Origin: Cytophagales bacterium
GTDB lineage: Bacteria > Bacteroidota > Bacteroidia > Cytophagales > Spirosomataceae
Assembly (NCBI GenBank): GCA_013298025.1
Contig: JAAFJE010000035.1
Coordinates: forward strand, 1 to 34,804
Length of the DNA: 34,804 bases
Direction of reading: 5' to 3'
In this document: positions 25,407 to 32,609 of the stretch, in pieces
How the letters are laid out: every line of letters starts with the position of its first letter
How positions within the stretch are numbered: position 1 is the first letter of the stretch
Translations under genes and position numbers: made by a program
Notes under the pieces: model-generated
What the model saw: only the letters and a program-made list of their open reading frames with translations
The model's database searches: none
What the model was told of the DNA's origin: nothing

Positions 25407-25507
25407 TTTGAAAATTTGATCATTTGAAAATTTGAAGATTGGTTTTTCCAACTTCGTTTCAAAAATCACGCTGTTTTCAAATTAGCACATTTTCAAATTT
25501 TCAAATT
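25405..25507. repeat. Giant inverted repeat filling the rplK-rplA gap
   Basis: The arms 25405-25436 and 25476-25507 are 32 bases each. They share AATTTGAAAATTTGA at the outer ends and ATTTGAA at the inner ends, with a few mismatches between. A further hairpin (GAAG and TTGG with CCAA and CTTC) caps the loop, so the whole spacer can fold as one long stem. The left arm begins within the rplK stop codon, and the right arm ends 10 bases before the rplA ATG. Confidence 0.8.
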
Positions 25508-25517
25508 GAAAAGAATA

Positions 25518-26216
25518 ATGGCTAAGTTAACAAAGAAACAAAAAGAGGCTCTCTCAAAATACGACAAGTCGCAAGCGTACTCGCTTACGAAGGCGGCTGA
25601 GATTTTGAAAGAGATTTCATATACGAAATTCGATGCTTCAGTTGACATCGACGTTCGTTTGGGTGTTGACCCACGTAAAGCAGACCAAATGGTTCGTGGT
25701 GTGGTAGCACTTCCTCATGGTACTGGTAAAGAAGTACGAGTATTGGTACTTTGTACACCAGACAAAGAAGAAGATGCTAAAGCAGCAGGTGCCGATTTCG
25801 TAGGCTTGGACGAATACATCCAAAAAATCGAAAAAGGTTGGACAGACGTTGACGTAATCATCACGATGCCAACTGTAATGGCTAAAATCGGTCGTTTAGG
25901 TCGTATTTTGGGTCCTCGTGGCTTGATGCCAAACCCTAAGTCTGGTACTGTGACTTTGGAAGTTGGCCAAGCTGTAAAAGAAGTAAAAGCTGGTAAAATC
26001 GACTTTAAAGTTGACAAAACTGGTATCATCCATACTTCTATCGGTAAGGTTTCTTTCGACCCTACCAAATTAGCTGAAAACGCACAAGAATTAATCAACA
26101 CTTTGTTGAAATTGAAGCCTTCTTCAGCGAAAGGAACTTACGTGAAGTCAATCAACTTGTCTTCTACGATGTCTCCTGGTGTTCAAATTGACAAAGCAAC
26201 AGTTAACGGTTTGTAA
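25518..26216 (+). CDS. rplA: 50S ribosomal protein L1
   Basis: Forms the L1 stalk of the large subunit and represses translation of the L11-L1 mRNA in bacteria where this is known. The 232 residues begin [12 protein letters not shown] and carry [30 protein letters not shown], the [18 protein letters not shown] signature and a [10 protein letters not shown] tail. An ATG four codons earlier is possible but the chosen start is the family start. A hairpin-filled gap of about 110 bases separates it from rplK. Confidence 0.98.
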
Positions 26217-26218
26217 TC

Positions 26219-26752
26219 ATGACAAGAGAAGAAAAAGCAGCCATCATTGGTGAGTTGAGCGAAAAGTTCGCTGCTACTCCATACTTCTACATCACTGATA
26301 CCGGAGGGTTGACCGTTGCAGAAGTAAACGCATTCAGAAGACTTTGTTTCCAACGTGGTTTAGAATACCGTGTTATCAAAAATACTTTGATTGCTAAAGC
26401 ACTTGAAACTACAGGTGTTGACTACAGTTCTTTCAAAGGAACAGTATTTAAAGGTTTGTCGGGTGTGATTTTCTCTCCAGAGAATCCTAAATCTCCTGCC
26501 AAACTTATCAAAGACTTCAAAAAAGAAGCTGGTAAAGATAAAATCCGTTTCAAAGGTGCTTCTATCGAAGGTGGTTTATTCATCGGAGAAGACCAATTGG
26601 CAGCCCTTGAAAATGTGAAGTCTAAACAAGAGATGATTGGCGACATCGTTGGATTGTTGCAATCTCCTGCGAAAAACGTTGTTTCTGCTCTTCAAAGCGG
26701 TGGAAGCAAATTGGCAGGTATCTTGAAAACTTTATCAGAGAAAGAAGGATAA
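26219..26752 (+). CDS. rplJ: 50S ribosomal protein L10
   Basis: Base of the L7/L12 stalk that binds 23S rRNA and anchors L7/L12 dimers through its C-terminal helix. The 177 residues show the L10 N-terminal domain (MTREEKAAIIGELSEKF, GLTVAEVNAFRR, EYRVIKNTLIAKAL) and the Leu/Ala-rich C-terminal helix. It begins two bases after the rplA stop codon, so translation is probably coupled. Confidence 0.97.
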   Translation: MTREEKAAIIGELSEKFAATPYFYITDTGGLTVAEVNAFRRLCFQRGLEYRVIKNTLIAKALETTGVDYSSFKGTVFKGLSGVIFSPENPKSPAKLIKDFKKEAGKDKIRFKGASIEGGLFIGEDQLAALENVKSKQEMIGDIVGLLQSPAKNVVSALQSGGSKLAGILKTLSEKEG

Positions 26753-26827
26753 TTTTAGCCCAAGGCTTCCAAGTACAATAACGCATATAATAATCAAAAT
26801 CGTAAACAATTAAAATCTCTTAATAAA

Positions 26828-27208
26828 ATGGCAGATTTAAAAGCATTCGCTGAACAATTAGTAAATTTAACAGTTAAAGAAGTTAACGAATTAGCCGCTA
26901 TCTTGAAAGATGAGTATGGTATCGAGCCTGCTGCTGCTGCTCCAGTTGTAGTTGCTGGTGGTGGTGCTGGTGAAGCTGCTGAAGCTCCTGTTGAAAAAAC
27001 TGCTTTCGACGTAGTATTGAAAGCTGCTGGTCCTAACAAATTGGCCGTAGTTAAATTGGTTAAAGACTTGACTGGTCTTGGTTTGAAAGAAGCGAAAGAA
27101 GTAGTTGACAGCGCTCCAAAAGCTATCAAAGAAGGCGTTTCTAAAGAAGAAGCTGAAGGCTTGAAAAAATCTTTAGAAGAAGCTGGTGCTGAAGTTGAAG
27201 TTAAATAA
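26828..27208 (+). CDS. rplL: 50S ribosomal protein L7/L12
   Basis: Stalk protein that recruits translational GTPases. The 126 residues have the dimerising N-terminal helices ([20 protein letters not shown]), an Ala/Gly/Pro hinge and the C-terminal domain with [21 protein letters not shown] and [15 protein letters not shown]. In most bacteria rpoB and rpoC follow; here a strong terminator and an unrelated island follow instead. Confidence 0.98.
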
Positions 27209-27504: not shown

Positions 27505-28851
27505 TTAATTATTTACTATAACCAGTAATTGAGGACTTTTTGCTCTGTACCGAAAATCATTGAGAATCAAAACAATAGGGGTATCATTTGGAATTGGGAA
27601 ATCATACTGTAGAGAAATCTCTTCTTCTCTGTTATTGCTATTAAGAATGAAACTCGATTCAATAATAGGTTCATATTCATTATTTCCTACTCTAATCTTA
27701 AAACATGAGGAGTGAGTTTGGTTAATAATTATTGACTCATATCCTTCATATTCAATATTTAAGCTTATTGTTTTAGTATCAGAATTGAAGCCAAATTGCA
27801 GTTTCATCTCAGAATAGTCAAATGATTCTCCATGTTTTTTAATATTCAAAAGCTCAATTACCAAATCGTCCATACCTAAAACATAAGGATTTACCTCATA
27901 CCATTTTCCACATTGGCGTTCGAGAGTTGGTTGCATTACTTTTTGTAACCATAAAGTATTCTGATAAGCCTTAATGATACGAAGAATAGCTTCCCATTCA
28001 TCATCTATTGTTTGAAAATTTTTATTGTAGTCAACCAATAATGCTTCATAAGCATTACAACCTACTTTTCTTAATGTTTTTTCATTTGTTTTTTTACTTT
28101 CAATTTGCTCGATACCACTCCCTTTCACATAATCAGGTACAATTGTTTTTAAATAATCAAACGCATCAAGAGTCTTCCCTTTGTTATGTTCGATCCATAA
28201 AAATGGAGTTGAGTTTTGCTCAAAATGTAAAATCAACCAAAATTCAAAAGCTATACAAGAATAAGCTAAATATATTTCATCCTTTTTATATATATGATAT
28301 TCTTTATCAAAATCAGCAAACTCTTTCTTTTTGTGAGGAGTGTAATGATGTATTAAATCCCAGAATTCAACTATTTCTTCGGTAGTAATTACCGTTTTCA
28401 GCCATTGAAGATAATCATAAATGGACAAAAAATATCGATTGCTATCTGAAATATATCCAGATTTAAGTTTTTGTAAGATGTGATTTTGATGTTCATTTTT
28501 TATAAGGTTCTCAGACTCAAAAAATGGAGTACTATTTTCTTCTAAAATGAAAGCATTTCTTTTATCATTATCAGAAACTATCCAAATTTTGGTGTAATTA
28601 TATTTTGCTTTTTTTGATTCTTCAATGGCTTTTCCTAAGTTTCCAACCAATTGTATTTCTATACCTGCTAAATTATTTTTTAGCCAAGGGTTTTCTTTTA
28701 TTCCTTGGAAATAACTTTCCTCTGTTTCTCCTTCAACTAATAGCAAAATATTTTTACCAAGTATATGTGGACTTTTTTCTTCTATTAGTCCTTCTTCCAC
28801 TGTTAAATATTTAGCCTTACGATTTTTATCTTTTCTACAATTACTTTTCAT
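27505..28851 (-). CDS. RloB-like TOPRIM protein with extra C-terminal domain (AbiLii-like)
   Basis: Second gene of an RloA-RloB type defence pair. The 448-residue protein has the TOPRIM-like RloB core: ILLLVEGETEESYFQGI with the conserved acidic residues at 40-44, WIVSDND with the D-x-D at 94-96, and AFEFWLILHFE (201-211), the hallmark block of RloB. NPYVLGMDDLVIELL (321-335) looks like the usual RloB end. About 105 further residues (344-448) form a beta-rich tail I cannot place. The ATG at 28851 is chosen because it overlaps the RloA gene by 11 bases and is followed by family-like sequence. RloB-type proteins act as toxic effectors with their ATPase partner in abortive infection (AbiL); that role is inferred here. 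Confidence 0.82.
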   Translation of the reverse strand: MKSNCRKDKNRKAKYLTVEEGLIEEKSPHILGKNILLLVEGETEESYFQGIKENPWLKNNLAGIEIQLVGNLGKAIEESKKAKYNYTKIWIVSDNDKRNAFILEENSTPFFESENLIKNEHQNHILQKLKSGYISDSNRYFLSIYDYLQWLKTVITTEEIVEFWDLIHHYTPHKKKEFADFDKEYHIYKKDEIYLAYSCIAFEFWLILHFEQNSTPFLWIEHNKGKTLDAFDYLKTIVPDYVKGSGIEQIESKKTNEKTLRKVGCNAYEALLVDYNKNFQTIDDEWEAILRIIKAYQNTLWLQKVMQPTLERQCGKWYEVNPYVLGMDDLVIELLNIKKHGESFDYSEMKLQFGFNSDTKTISLNIEYEGYESIIINQTHSSCFKIRVGNNEYEPIIESSFILNSNNREEEISLQYDFPIPNDTPIVLILNDFRYRAKSPQLLVIVNN

Positions 28852-30187
28852 ATTGAAGTTCAAGGCTTTGATAAAGAGAAGACTTATTGATATTAGGTAT
28901 TGCTTCAAACTCACCACGTAAATATCTTTTAGAGTTTGCAACATCACCCCTTAATCCTCGAATATCGGAGATTGCATAGATTTCAGTTGCTCCTATGAAA
29001 TCTTTTTGAACTAAATTAATTTGGTCATCATCAAGTATATCTAATAGGGTAATATCATGCGTAGTAAAGATAAGTTGTGACCCTTTAGTGTTTACTTTAG
29101 GGTTTGCTAATAATGAAATTAATGTTTGTGTTAAATAAGGATGAAAGCTTTTATCAAATTCATCAACAACCATTAGACTACCTGATTTTATCAATTGGAT
29201 TAAATCAGAAAACACAGCTATAAATTTTTGAGTACCTTCTGATTCTTCTTTTAGAGAAATGTTACGAGTTCCAATCTCATTTGTACCGTTGAAAAGTCTA
29301 TGAACAGCTTGCATTTCCATTTTTAAAGCATCGACTAAATCGTCACGTTTCTTTTTTTCTGTATCTGATAGTTCATTTTCAGATGTATTTTCAAAAATAA
29401 TATTTTTAGGTAATTTGTCTGATTTTGAAGAAGTTAATTCTAATACTCCTGTGTCAATATTTCTAAGAGCATTATTTAATATTTTCATATCAGTGCTGTT
29501 TTTTTCACTCGCTACCTTTACAAAAAACTTTGTTTGAATATCATTGTATCCTTCAGTAAAATCGCTAATACGGAAACCTGATTTAAAAAAATGAAAAATT
29601 GGGTCTAAAAATGTATTATTTTCATTAATAGATTTGGAAAGAAAAAGAACATTGGTTCGAGTACGTTCTTCTATTGGCTTACGTAAACCTTTAAAATCAG
29701 ATCCATAAGAAATGGGTTGATTTGCATGACGAGTATAGAGCTTTCTTGTTGTCGTTTTGCCAGTTTCTGTTGTAATATAATAGTGTAATTCTTCTTTTAA
29801 AACCTCGTCTTTATTAAACTCTATAATGTACAAGTACCTTTTATTATCATTCGCTAGAAAATCTATTTCAAATAAAGTTGGAGCTTGAACGTAATTAGTA
29901 TCAAAGATGAAAGTTTCATTTGCTAGTAACTTATCGCCTTGAGTAAAGCGATGGGAATTTAAGACAAGCCATTCAATTGCTTTGAAAGCTTTTATTATAT
30001 TTGATTTACCAGCACTATTTTTCCCATAAATAGCTGAGAGTGTTAGTAAATTTAGGTTTTTATACTGAGGAATATTAAATAATGAGTTCTTCCTTTCTAC
30101 AACTTTTACTCGTTCTGAGGGGAGCATAGATAAAGTTTGTCGCTCTTTTATAGAACGGAAATTTGTTACTGAGAATTCAATCAACAT
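28841..30187 (-). CDS. RloA-like AAA15/AAA21 ATPase (AbiLi-like)
   Basis: ATPase of the ABC/SMC-like AAA15 group, 448 residues. Walker A is GKNSAGKS (55-62) after MLIEFSVTNFRSI, the signature-like segment is EESEGTQKF, Walker B is LMVVDEFDKSFHP and the H-loop is FTTHD. An inserted helical region (about residues 170-290) lies between the ATP-binding halves. Such proteins serve as sensors or regulators in OLD-like, AbiL, PARIS and related systems. The coupled downstream RloB gene identifies the pair as RloAB/AbiL-like. The start codon lies two bases from a long perfect palindrome that overlaps the promoter region. The A+T-rich codon use differs from the ribosomal genes next door, which suggests transfer. 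Confidence 0.85.
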   Translation of the reverse strand: MLIEFSVTNFRSIKERQTLSMLPSERVKVVERKNSLFNIPQYKNLNLLTLSAIYGKNSAGKSNIIKAFKAIEWLVLNSHRFTQGDKLLANETFIFDTNYVQAPTLFEIDFLANDNKRYLYIIEFNKDEVLKEELHYYITTETGKTTTRKLYTRHANQPISYGSDFKGLRKPIEERTRTNVLFLSKSINENNTFLDPIFHFFKSGFRISDFTEGYNDIQTKFFVKVASEKNSTDMKILNNALRNIDTGVLELTSSKSDKLPKNIIFENTSENELSDTEKKKRDDLVDALKMEMQAVHRLFNGTNEIGTRNISLKEESEGTQKFIAVFSDLIQLIKSGSLMVVDEFDKSFHPYLTQTLISLLANPKVNTKGSQLIFTTHDITLLDILDDDQINLVQKDFIGATEIYAISDIRGLRGDVANSKRYLRGEFEAIPNINKSSLYQSLELQYEK

Positions 30188-30545: not shown

Positions 30546-30980
30546 ATGATTTCAGATAGAAATGAACTTGTAAGTGTTGCCCTGAATTGGGAGAAAAAAT
30601 ATGGTGTAATGCCTTCTATTACATCTACTATATCAGAGTATGATGCTGTTCTTTTGCTTGGAGTAGATGAAAAAGACATTAGCTCAATTTTGAATATGCC
30701 CAATAAAACAGCCGTTACAAAAGGCTTTGATTTTAAATACAATGGAATTAGATACCAAGTCAAAGCAAATCGCCCAAGTGGCAAAAAAGGAAGTAAGGTT
30801 TCAAAAGTGGCAAATGCAAGTAATTTAGAATGGGATTTTTTAATATGGATTTTGTACAACACAAAATTTGAAATAGAGGAAGCTTGGATTTGGGACGTAA
30901 AACAATATGCAACTAGATTTCCAGACTTAAAACAACGCATTCATCCTGATCATATTAGAGAGGGAGCAAAATTGTATTAA
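30546..30980 (+). CDS. Small PD-(D/E)XK-like protein, likely restriction-associated
   Basis: A 144-residue protein whose middle reads GFDFKYNGIRYQVKANRPSG (D62, Q71, K73). A G-x-D strand, a turn and then Q-x-K is the arrangement of PD-(D/E)XK nuclease cores in which Gln replaces Glu. The rest is a helical N terminus (LNWEKKYGVMPSITSTISEYDA) and a Trp-rich region (WDFLIWILYN, EEAWIWDV). I recall similar conserved uncharacterised proteins next to restriction-modification genes but cannot name the family with certainty. It follows the decayed methyltransferase tail by 54 bases, so it may be the surviving nuclease or accessory part of that system. Confidence 0.65.
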   Translation: MISDRNELVSVALNWEKKYGVMPSITSTISEYDAVLLLGVDEKDISSILNMPNKTAVTKGFDFKYNGIRYQVKANRPSGKKGSKVSKVANASNLEWDFLIWILYNTKFEIEEAWIWDVKQYATRFPDLKQRIHPDHIREGAKLY

Positions 30981-31025: not shown

Positions 31026-31090
31026 CTACGCCCCACGTTGAAGTCCCCCCACAAAATTGTCAGAACCAACAGCTACAAATTTGTTTAAAC

Positions 31091-31274
31091 TTGCCACAGC
31101 TTGCAGGAAGGAAACATCATTCGTTTTTTTCTTGCCACAGCTTGCAGGAAGGAAATATCGTTTGTTATTTAGTTGTCGCAGGTTGCAGGAAGGAAATATC
31201 ATTCGTTTTTTTCTTGCCACAGTTTGCAGGAAGGAAACATCGTTTGTTATTTTCTTGCCACAGCTTGCAGGAAG
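31091..31274. repeat. 41-bp tandem repeat, about 4.5 copies
   Basis: Units start at 31091, 31132, 31173, 31214 and 31255 (the last partial). The common core is TTGCCACAGCTTGCAGGAAG followed by GAAA. Units 1 and 3 share one tail type (ATCATTCGTTTTTTTC) and units 2 and 4 another (ATCGTTTGTTATTT), so copies alternate as an 82-bp double unit. The period is not a multiple of three; short ORFs across it are not genes. Confidence 0.9.
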
Positions 31275-31276
31275 TC

Positions 31277-31661
31277 TAAAATACTCATGGCATGAATGAT
31301 ATTTCATTGGGAGAAGGGACAAATTCCTGTCATTCATGCCATGAGTGGCAAGGTAAAATACTCATGGCATGAATGATATTTCATTGAGAGAAGGGACAAA
31401 TCTCTGTCATTCATGCCATGAGTGGCAAGGTAAAATACTCATGGCATGAATGATATTTCATTGGGAGAAGGGACAAATTCCTGTCATTCATGCCATGAGT
31501 GGCAAGGTAAAATACTCATGGCATGAATGATATTTCATTGGGAGAAGGGACAAATCTCTGTCATTCATGCCATGAGTGGCAAGGTAAAATACTCATGGCA
31601 TGAATGATATTTCATTGAGAGAAGGGACAAATTTCTGTCATTCATGCCATGAGTGGCAAGG
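31277..31661. repeat. 77-bp tandem hairpin repeat, five copies
   Basis: Units begin at 31277, 31354, 31431, 31508 and 31585. Each holds a perfect 17-bp inverted repeat (ACTCATGGCATGAATGA with its complement) around a 30-base loop and a short linker (GGCAAGGTAAAAT). The only visible differences are within a four-base pair set in the loop: GGGA/TTCC, GAGA/TCTC, GGGA/TTCC, GGGA/TCTC and GAGA/TTTC. All of these can pair with G-T allowed. The copies are full repeats with no unique spacers, so this is not CRISPR. Confidence 0.93.
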
Positions 31662-31835: not shown

Positions 31836-32609
31836 ATGGAAAAGAAAGGGAATAAACACGCAAACTACGAGATACTTAACCTTATAGGCTATGGCTTGTC
31901 TAAATTTAATGATGAATTTATAAAAGCATTTGGATTTAACACGAAAACGGCTTTCTATAAATATTGCGTAGCAATCGGGATTTCAGATACGGTTGGAACA
32001 GTAAAAAATAGAATGGATTTATTTGATTGTTTTTTTCCAGACAATAGTAGAAAAGGCTGGTGGCAAAAAGGCGATGCCTATATCCATAGAAAGCTATTGA
32101 TTGATAGCCTTTTCGGAAACGAAACTGTTACAGGATATTCAAATATTGTAAAACTGTATTTGAAAGAAAATTATAAAGTACAAGAGCTTGATGTAGAAGT
32201 CAAACCTATTGTAAAATCAAGATTTAAGAAATTGCAGGAAACAGGTTTAGAAGCCGAATTATATTTTATGAACAATTTTAATACAATAGAACATTTTAAA
32301 GATGGTTTCTTAGAAGATGCGAGATTGTTTGGAGATGGTTATGATTTTCAAATTAGTGTAAATGAACATTTGTATTTAGCAGAGATAAAAGGAATTAGAG
32401 AAAAAAAAGGAAGGTTTAGAATGACTGAAAATGAATATAATAAAGCATTAGAATATAAAAATGATTATTTTATTACTTTGGTTTTGAATATGAATGATTT
32501 ACCCACTTTTTTGACTATTGAAAATCCAGTGAATAATCTCAAGTTTAAGAAAGAAGAAAGGGTATCGAAGCCCATAATTGAATACCATTTAATAAATGAG
32601 ATATGTTGA
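31836..32609 (+). CDS. DUF3883-domain protein, PD-(D/E)XK nuclease-like
   Basis: A 257-residue protein. The C-terminal part is a DUF3883-like nuclease fold: GDGYDFQIS (D170), LYLAEIKG with the E-x-K pair (E183, K185), then GRFRMTENEYNKALEY and YFITLVLN, the usual series of this domain. The N-terminal 130 residues are helical (NLIGYGLSKFNDEFIKAFGF) and unplaced, perhaps a DNA-binding or partner module. DUF3883 domains are frequent in restriction and defence proteins, which suits the neighbourhood; cleavage by this protein is inferred. The gene starts right behind a 26-codon ORF and overlaps the next ORF by seven bases, so the three may be translated together. Confidence 0.75.
   Translation: MEKKGNKHANYEILNLIGYGLSKFNDEFIKAFGFNTKTAFYKYCVAIGISDTVGTVKNRMDLFDCFFPDNSRKGWWQKGDAYIHRKLLIDSLFGNETVTGYSNIVKLYLKENYKVQELDVEVKPIVKSRFKKLQETGLEAELYFMNNFNTIEHFKDGFLEDARLFGDGYDFQISVNEHLYLAEIKGIREKKGRFRMTENEYNKALEYKNDYFITLVLNMNDLPTFLTIENPVNNLKFKKEERVSKPIIEYHLINEIC

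Follow-up and report, generated by a model that had tools for sequence, protein, structure and literature searches.

The window analysed here is one whole contig (C29, 34,804 nt) of the 5.44-Mb assembly of a Cytophagales bacterium. At positions 31277-31661 it carries a run of near-identical, hairpin-forming repeats among putative defence genes, which raises the question whether a new defence or RNA element is found here, or whether the repeats belong to a known class. Repeat analysis with TRF gave five contiguous units of 77 bp, arranged head-to-tail (96% matches, no indels, score 728), in agreement with the original prediction made from the letters of this DNA. Each unit has the perfect 17-bp inverted repeat that had been described. 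The arms are ACTCATGGCATGAATGA / TCATTCATGCCATGAGT; 30 nt separate the two arms of a unit and 13 nt separate neighbouring hairpins. A second tandem array with a unit of 41 bp lies directly upstream of the hairpins and had been overlooked, as had the further copies of the hairpin described below. Diverged relatives of the 41-bp unit adjoin the same hairpin family, in the form of paired or single arms, on the contigs C8, C16, C45 and C51. These relatives are also tandem and are built on a CCTGCAA-TTGCAGG palindrome. The features are collected in Table 1.

Table 1. Positions of the two tandem arrays, of the genes on either side of them and of the transposase gene on contig C12; positions are those of the window unless a contig is given.
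Feature	Position	Strand	Details
Second tandem array	31090..31274	.	about 4.5 units of 41 bp (TTGCCACAGCTTGCAGGAAGG...), directly upstream of the hairpin array; TRF
REPIN-like unit 1	31277..31353	.	arms 31283-31299 and 31330-31346
REPIN-like unit 2	31354..31430	.	arms 31360-31376 and 31407-31423
REPIN-like unit 3	31431..31507	.	arms 31437-31453 and 31484-31500; identical to unit 1 in sequence
REPIN-like unit 4	31508..31584	.	arms 31514-31530 and 31561-31577
REPIN-like unit 5	31585..31661	.	arms 31591-31607 and 31638-31654
144-aa ORF	30546-30980		one side of the array; weak restriction-enzyme match
NOV_C/DUF3883 gene	31836-32609		other side of the array
REP-associated tyrosine transposase (RAYT / TnpA-REP, HUH Y1 family)	C12:59588-60163		191 aa

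The genome was searched for the paired cores CATGGCATGA...TCATGCCATG at a distance of 4 to 64 nt. The cores occur at 26 exact places, of which five are the array and 21 lie outside the window, and the reversed control pattern did not occur in the genome. When the surroundings of all 21 other places were fetched and C or G was permitted at the outer core base, 30 pairs were obtained outside the window. In the array unit, an arm of 13-17 nt (ACTCATGGCATGA...) occurs twice in inverted orientation, and this doublet is present at no fewer than 30 dispersed places in the genome. All but one of the 30 pairs fall outside ORFs of at least 150 aa, taken mechanically from six frames, though such ORFs cover 71% of the bases examined. 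The spacing between the 10-nt cores ranges from 5 to 41 nt and the total length from 29 to 69 bp; in 21 of the 30 pairs the stem ends exactly three pairs beyond the core. The long forms (59-69 bp) have the arms at their very ends, and the compact forms are hairpins of 33 nt with a 3-nt loop. Between the genome copies the outer stem ends co-vary (ACTC/GAGT, ACTG/CAGT, ACGC/GCGT and AAGG/CCTT). The array resembles a local accumulation, in tandem, of one small palindrome family of the REP/REPIN kind that is dispersed in the genome, and the dispersed copy number of some 30-40 is low for REPs. Canonical REPs are marked by a GT[AG]G foot. When both strands were checked, this motif was found near the hairpin foot of none of the 30 elements, which places all of them outside the canonical GTAG definition.

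Other palindromes accompany some of the pairs. Within 500 bp of the 30 pairs, the CCAAGTT palindrome was present at five and the core of the 41-bp unit at three, and several single arms have these neighbours too. Among the pairs the enrichment is modest, since random positions in the same loci reach 8% for the CCAAGTT palindrome and 4% for the 41-bp core. In the bacterial interspersed mosaic elements (BIMEs), one REP is repeated in alternating orientation. As in BIMEs, several palindromes (the 41-bp unit, CCAAGTT, GCAGTC and this hairpin) lie together at some intergenic sites, but the mosaic units here are unrelated palindrome families. A different family of 15-3-15 hairpins, AACGTCGGGGAGGTT-tta-AACCTCCCCGACGTT, was also seen in the genome (L053 17968-18790 and L058 13885).

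The arm itself was looked for in the genome contigs of other species. Among 257 billion bases, 24 stretches matched the 17-mer, which is near the chance expectation that we estimate at about 30, and in none of the 24 was the partner core present within 80 nt. At the DNA level, a 591-bp region gave only short and weak matches in 58 other genomes, the best with an E of 0.006 over 21 bases.

The genome has five matches to Y1 transposases. The gene on C12 listed in Table 1 encodes a RAYT that scored 28.1 bits against the Pfam model Y1_Tnp (cut-off 23) and 74.6 bits, below the cut-off of 80, against the NCBIfam model REP_Tyr_transpos. Its sole PDB match at E 0.001, and hence the only solved structure matched by its sequence, was the E. 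coli TnpA-REP 4er8 (E 5.7e-6). Hairpins of the family lie 17 bp upstream of its start codon and 8 bp downstream of its stop codon. Both of them (ACTGATGGCATGACT-ttg-AGTCATGCCATCAGT and ACTCATGGCATGACT-ttg-AGTCATGCCATGAGT) combine a 15-bp stem with the loop TTG, and beyond these flanks lies an additional half copy. The arms of the window unit diverge from those beside the RAYT after 13 nt, and the 30-nt spacer of the window unit was not seen beside the C12 RAYT. The Y1 genes on C34 and at C12:128943 have their own flanking palindromes (CCAAGTT and GCAGTC; CTTGTTGGAG), as expected of REPtrons; at the remaining two no clear flanking palindrome pair was seen.

From these findings the array is very probably an ordered tandem cluster of REPIN-like elements that are cognate to the C12 RAYT. 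It was considered whether the unit could instead be a MITE-like element with terminal inverted repeats that depends on an ordinary DDE transposase and shares its stem with the RAYT-flanking hairpins by chance. The long forms with arms at their very ends fit such an element, and the nearest size class is indeed that of MITEs, given as 70-300 bp with 15-30-bp TIRs by Di Nocera et al. (PMC3733652). The compact forms with 33 nt and a 3-nt loop, however, are too small for a MITE body, and they flank the Y1 transposase on both sides. We regard a MITE-like origin as unlikely.

The assignment to REPIN-like elements was followed in the relatives of the C12 RAYT. At E 1e-20, 46 of 150 genomes from the same bacterial family had a homologue, and the motifs NHFH (HUH motif) and YIHQNP (Y motif) were invariant in all 12 RAYTs that were aligned. 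Thirty RAYT loci were fetched and all were scanned for perfect arms of at least 10; 23 of them, including the own locus, were examined for flanking hairpins. A 15-bp stem with a 3-4-nt loop and an (A/G)TG(G/C)CA(C/T)-like core was observed at seven of the 23, in six cases on both sides of the gene. Counted without the own locus, core-bearing hairpins of 33-34 nt are present at 6 of 22 homologous loci, all of them from other genera, where the proteins are 50-54% identical to the C12 RAYT. Hairpins with other cores were found at four loci (L098, L100, L102 and L105) and marginal ones, with 12 of 15 pairs, at two (L088 and L106). At the other ten of the 23 loci, no hairpin with 12 of 15 positions paired was present within 260 bp.

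The 17 core-bearing hairpins from the seven loci were aligned; not included were three core-less hairpin-like stretches at L090 and L092, as well as the marginal hairpin of L088. In the alignment 98.8% of the cells are paired, a fraction that is partly given by construction because the hairpins were picked for pairing. The shared core, the length and the position beside homologous genes are not products of this selection. Nine of the 15 stem pairs are changed on both sides, compared to a mean of 6.1 in shuffled alignments, and only 6 of 500 shuffles reached this number. For single cells the difference was larger: 57 are changed on both sides, compared to a shuffled mean of 16.2, and none of the 500 shuffles reached 57. 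The covariation score was 0.594, against 0.189 for shuffled and at most 0.123 for slid alignments. The number of further pair types (17) was not above that of the shuffles (mean 18.7). The stem co-varies between genera. The original prediction had proposed that a folded single strand is selected or templated; this is supported by the stem across the genera, with its nine doubly changed pairs, and not by the loop of the array, which is treated below. In the same alignment we noted that each 15-nt arm beside the RAYTs is close to palindromic in its own sequence, as in TCATG-G-CATGA, which gives the 33-mer two levels of symmetry.

To see how closely RAYT and hairpin go together, a covariance model was built from the 17 hairpins and matches were counted on both strands at E 0.01, with at most 150 candidates per genome scored. 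In the 12 genomes where the RAYT matched best, the model gave 44, 23, 41, 41, 45, 117, 30, 23, 3, 1, 28 and 1 matches. The 16 genomes without a RAYT at E 1e-20 had 0, 0, 2, 0, 2, 14, 4, 0, 14, 0, 0, 2, 6, 11, 0 and 0. Hairpin copies were more numerous in the genomes with RAYT (p = 2.3e-4); with only the five RAYT genomes that are outside the model, the association had a p of 0.058. When 150 genomes were drawn, at least five matches at E 1e-4 were obtained in 9 of 19 genomes with a RAYT above 160 bits and in 22 of the 131 others (Fisher p = 0.005, with both cut-offs chosen after the tables had been seen). Six of these 22 hairpin-rich genomes have a RAYT that is weaker but still found at E 1e-20, and the other 16 have none. 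Twelve of the 16 were rechecked: five had no RAYT match at E 0.001 and seven had weaker matches only. A simple presence/absence coupling holds only in part. We conclude that the coupling of RAYT and hairpin exists but is loose; the exceptions could be due to loss of the RAYT, use of the hairpins by related RAYTs or incomplete assemblies.

The array could also be read as a structured, repeated RNA, either a small RNA array or a set of mRNA-stabilising or terminating hairpins, that is selected for its RNA fold. REPs can act as RNA too. Single array units fold as RNA far more strongly than their shuffles on both strands (z -5.9 to -6.9 in six sequences), and for copy 1 the fold of the + strand is more stable than that of the other strand (-32.7 vs -27.9 kcal/mol). 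On the other side, the + strand has no T-run after the hairpin, and an Rfam scan of the window at gathering thresholds matched two tRNAs and nothing on the array.

The variation among the five copies bears on the same question. It had been taken as pairing-preserving, with two loop segments that stay complementary in every copy, and hence as a sign of selection. Three unit columns vary, namely 34 (G/A), 49 (T/C) and 50 (C/T), which correspond to the positions 31310, 31325 and 31326 in copy 1, and all changes are transitions. With the columns paired as 34-50 and 35-49, all five copies have G-C, A-T or G.T at these places, so that the claim of complementarity is upheld as far as the pairs are concerned. 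However, a G.T wobble is required in four of the five copies (at column 49 in copies 1, 3 and 5 and at column 50 in copy 4), and only copy 2 has a loop with full Watson-Crick pairing. Column 49 lies opposite a constant G and its pairing cannot fail, and the permutation was done with 34-50 as the sole informative column pair. Of the 120 permutations of the observed bases, 36 keep all five copies paired (p = 0.3). Minimum-free-energy folds were calculated for the copies 1, 2, 4 and 5, copy 3 being identical to copy 1. The named four-base pairing of the loop was present in copy 2 only, and in the best folds the loop bases pair differently from copy to copy. Since the permutation is not significant and the copies fold the loop differently, the loop variation is no evidence for selection, and loop covariation was rejected as a sign of it. 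An RNA selected for its fold is unlikely as the explanation of the array.

The array lies between two nuclease-like genes, as the original prediction stated, but a role as nuclease target, decoy or CRISPR-like array for the neighbouring DUF3883, NgoFVII-like or AbiL genes is extremely unlikely, with inter-hairpin sequences that are the same in all five copies, 21 further exact stem pairs at other loci, one of them beside the RAYT gene, and a PADLOC analysis of eight nearby ORFs (best 25 rows per protein) in which the sole Cas-labelled row was a generic PD-(D/E)XK profile on a DUF1016 protein. Because the sequences between the hairpins show no differences, a CRISPR array was rejected. The array probably does not represent a new system, be it for defence or of RNA type. 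The defence genes beside it seem incidental, and the REPIN-like explanation does not need a role for them. The proposal of a recombination substrate or nuclease target comes near to the reading preferred here, with the difference that the likely enzyme is the HUH/Y1 RAYT on another contig and neither the DUF3883 protein nor the restriction-like neighbours.

Several other observations were made on the genes of the window. An AbiL-type pair, consisting of an AbiLi ATPase and an AbiLii/RloB-like protein, is located at 27505-30187 on the minus strand. An ORF of 114 aa at 32907-33251 matches only the positions 264-375 of a type II restriction enzyme model that is 376 long, and is probably the end fragment of an NgoFVII-like enzyme. 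At 25506-27208, the genes for the ribosomal proteins L1 and L10 come, together with a small ORF at the place of L7/L12, before the defence island and not before rpoB. The linkage of rplL and rpoB is the usual arrangement. In this assembly it seems to be broken, since the sole rpoB match lies on contig C42 (C42:8104-11973, L133), after unrelated genes, and the defence island follows the L7/L12 position.

The REPIN-like reading was compared with the systems known from the literature. According to Bertels and Rainey (PMC3116915), a REPIN is an inverted REP doublet that forms a hairpin with compensatory changes, and ordered clusters are tandem, near-identical REPINs including their flanks, with four REPINs in the largest. 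The elements here correspond to a REPIN in their inverted conserved ends with a variable spacer, their intergenic dispersal and the presence of the same family beside a RAYT. Like the clusters of Pseudomonas fluorescens SBW25 in that study, they consist of a short conserved end that is doubled in inverted orientation around a variable spacer, they are predicted to form a hairpin, they show compensatory changes, they form ordered tandem arrays of near-identical units including the flanks, and the RAYT of the genome is flanked by the same family. Unlike in SBW25 as described there, a GTAG-type foot is absent, the dispersed copies number some 30-40 and not hundreds, the tandem cluster lies away from the RAYT, and it has five units, whereas the largest SBW25 cluster has four REPINs and one REP. 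Reiteration of REPs in tandem together with flanking DNA is also described by Di Nocera et al. (PMC3733652).

The absence of the foot has precedents. Quentin et al. (PMC6006769) describe the TnpA-Y1 subclass 2.6, Bertels group 5, as mostly from Bacteroidetes, with the Y motif YIH[QN]NP and the HUH motif NH[LIV]H, and its REPtrons as lacking GT[AG]G and having 'atypical', weaker flanking structures that are repeated in the genome. The C12 RAYT resembles this subclass in its Y motif YIHQNP, in its flanking structures without GT[AG]G and in the copies elsewhere in the genome. It differs from that description in that its hairpin stems are near-perfect over 15 bp, the loop has 3-4 nt and the core recurs. 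Since its HUH motif is NHFH and not NH[LIV]H, we did not file it in subclass 2.6, which it resembles in its working; the same study gives NH[IFV]H for subclass 2.4. In the E. coli REPs the stem is bulged and GTAG is required, according to Corneloup et al. (PMC8266576), and neither was seen here. Different RAYTs tolerate GTAG changes to different degrees in that study, which makes a foot-less system plausible.

For the array itself, we infer the following course. The C12 RAYT would recognise the folded single strand, most likely during its exposure on the lagging-strand template, and would nick and move this hairpin strand. One copy of the hairpin may have been seeded next to the palindromic array of 41-bp units. 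Slippage or unequal recombination at this site could then have multiplied this copy, together with the 13 nt between the hairpins, to the five near-identical units. In this way, a puzzling array that might have been a new element of defence or RNA type is placed in a known class, and its sequence ties it to one particular transposase gene.

The hairpins beside the RAYTs of the family are of more interest than the array. The aligned hairpins from seven genomes provide a testable consensus for REPs that are called only 'atypical' in the literature consulted. A hairpin consensus for these foot-less REPs was not found in the literature searched, mostly outside the subscription journals, and it is possibly new. 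More tentatively, a large RAYT clade of this bacterial family might follow a recognition rule without a foot. The substrate would be a hairpin of 33-34 nt with a 15-bp stem and a 3-4-nt loop, in which the stem may drift as long as it stays paired and the near-palindromic core is fixed, as (A/G)TG(G/C)CA(C/T) or, in sister RAYTs, as other cores. RAYT lineage and hairpin would co-evolve, and opening of the 3-nt loop to a spacer of about 25-40 nt would give the long doublets, which could be multiplied in tandem as in the window. The sets of RAYT and hairpin with differing core and stem are ready substrates for this question of foot-less REP recognition. More distant RAYTs have the same hairpin geometry with other cores, for example at L141, L136/L144 and L134, and others among the 25 loci examined for this show none. 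At one locus with a distant RAYT (L114 2130-2624, genome G088), about eight hairpins with the arms ACTTCCCGAAAGT and ACTTCTCGAAAGT follow 3' of the gene, in part with a period near 126 bp, and form a tandem REP cluster beside its RAYT.
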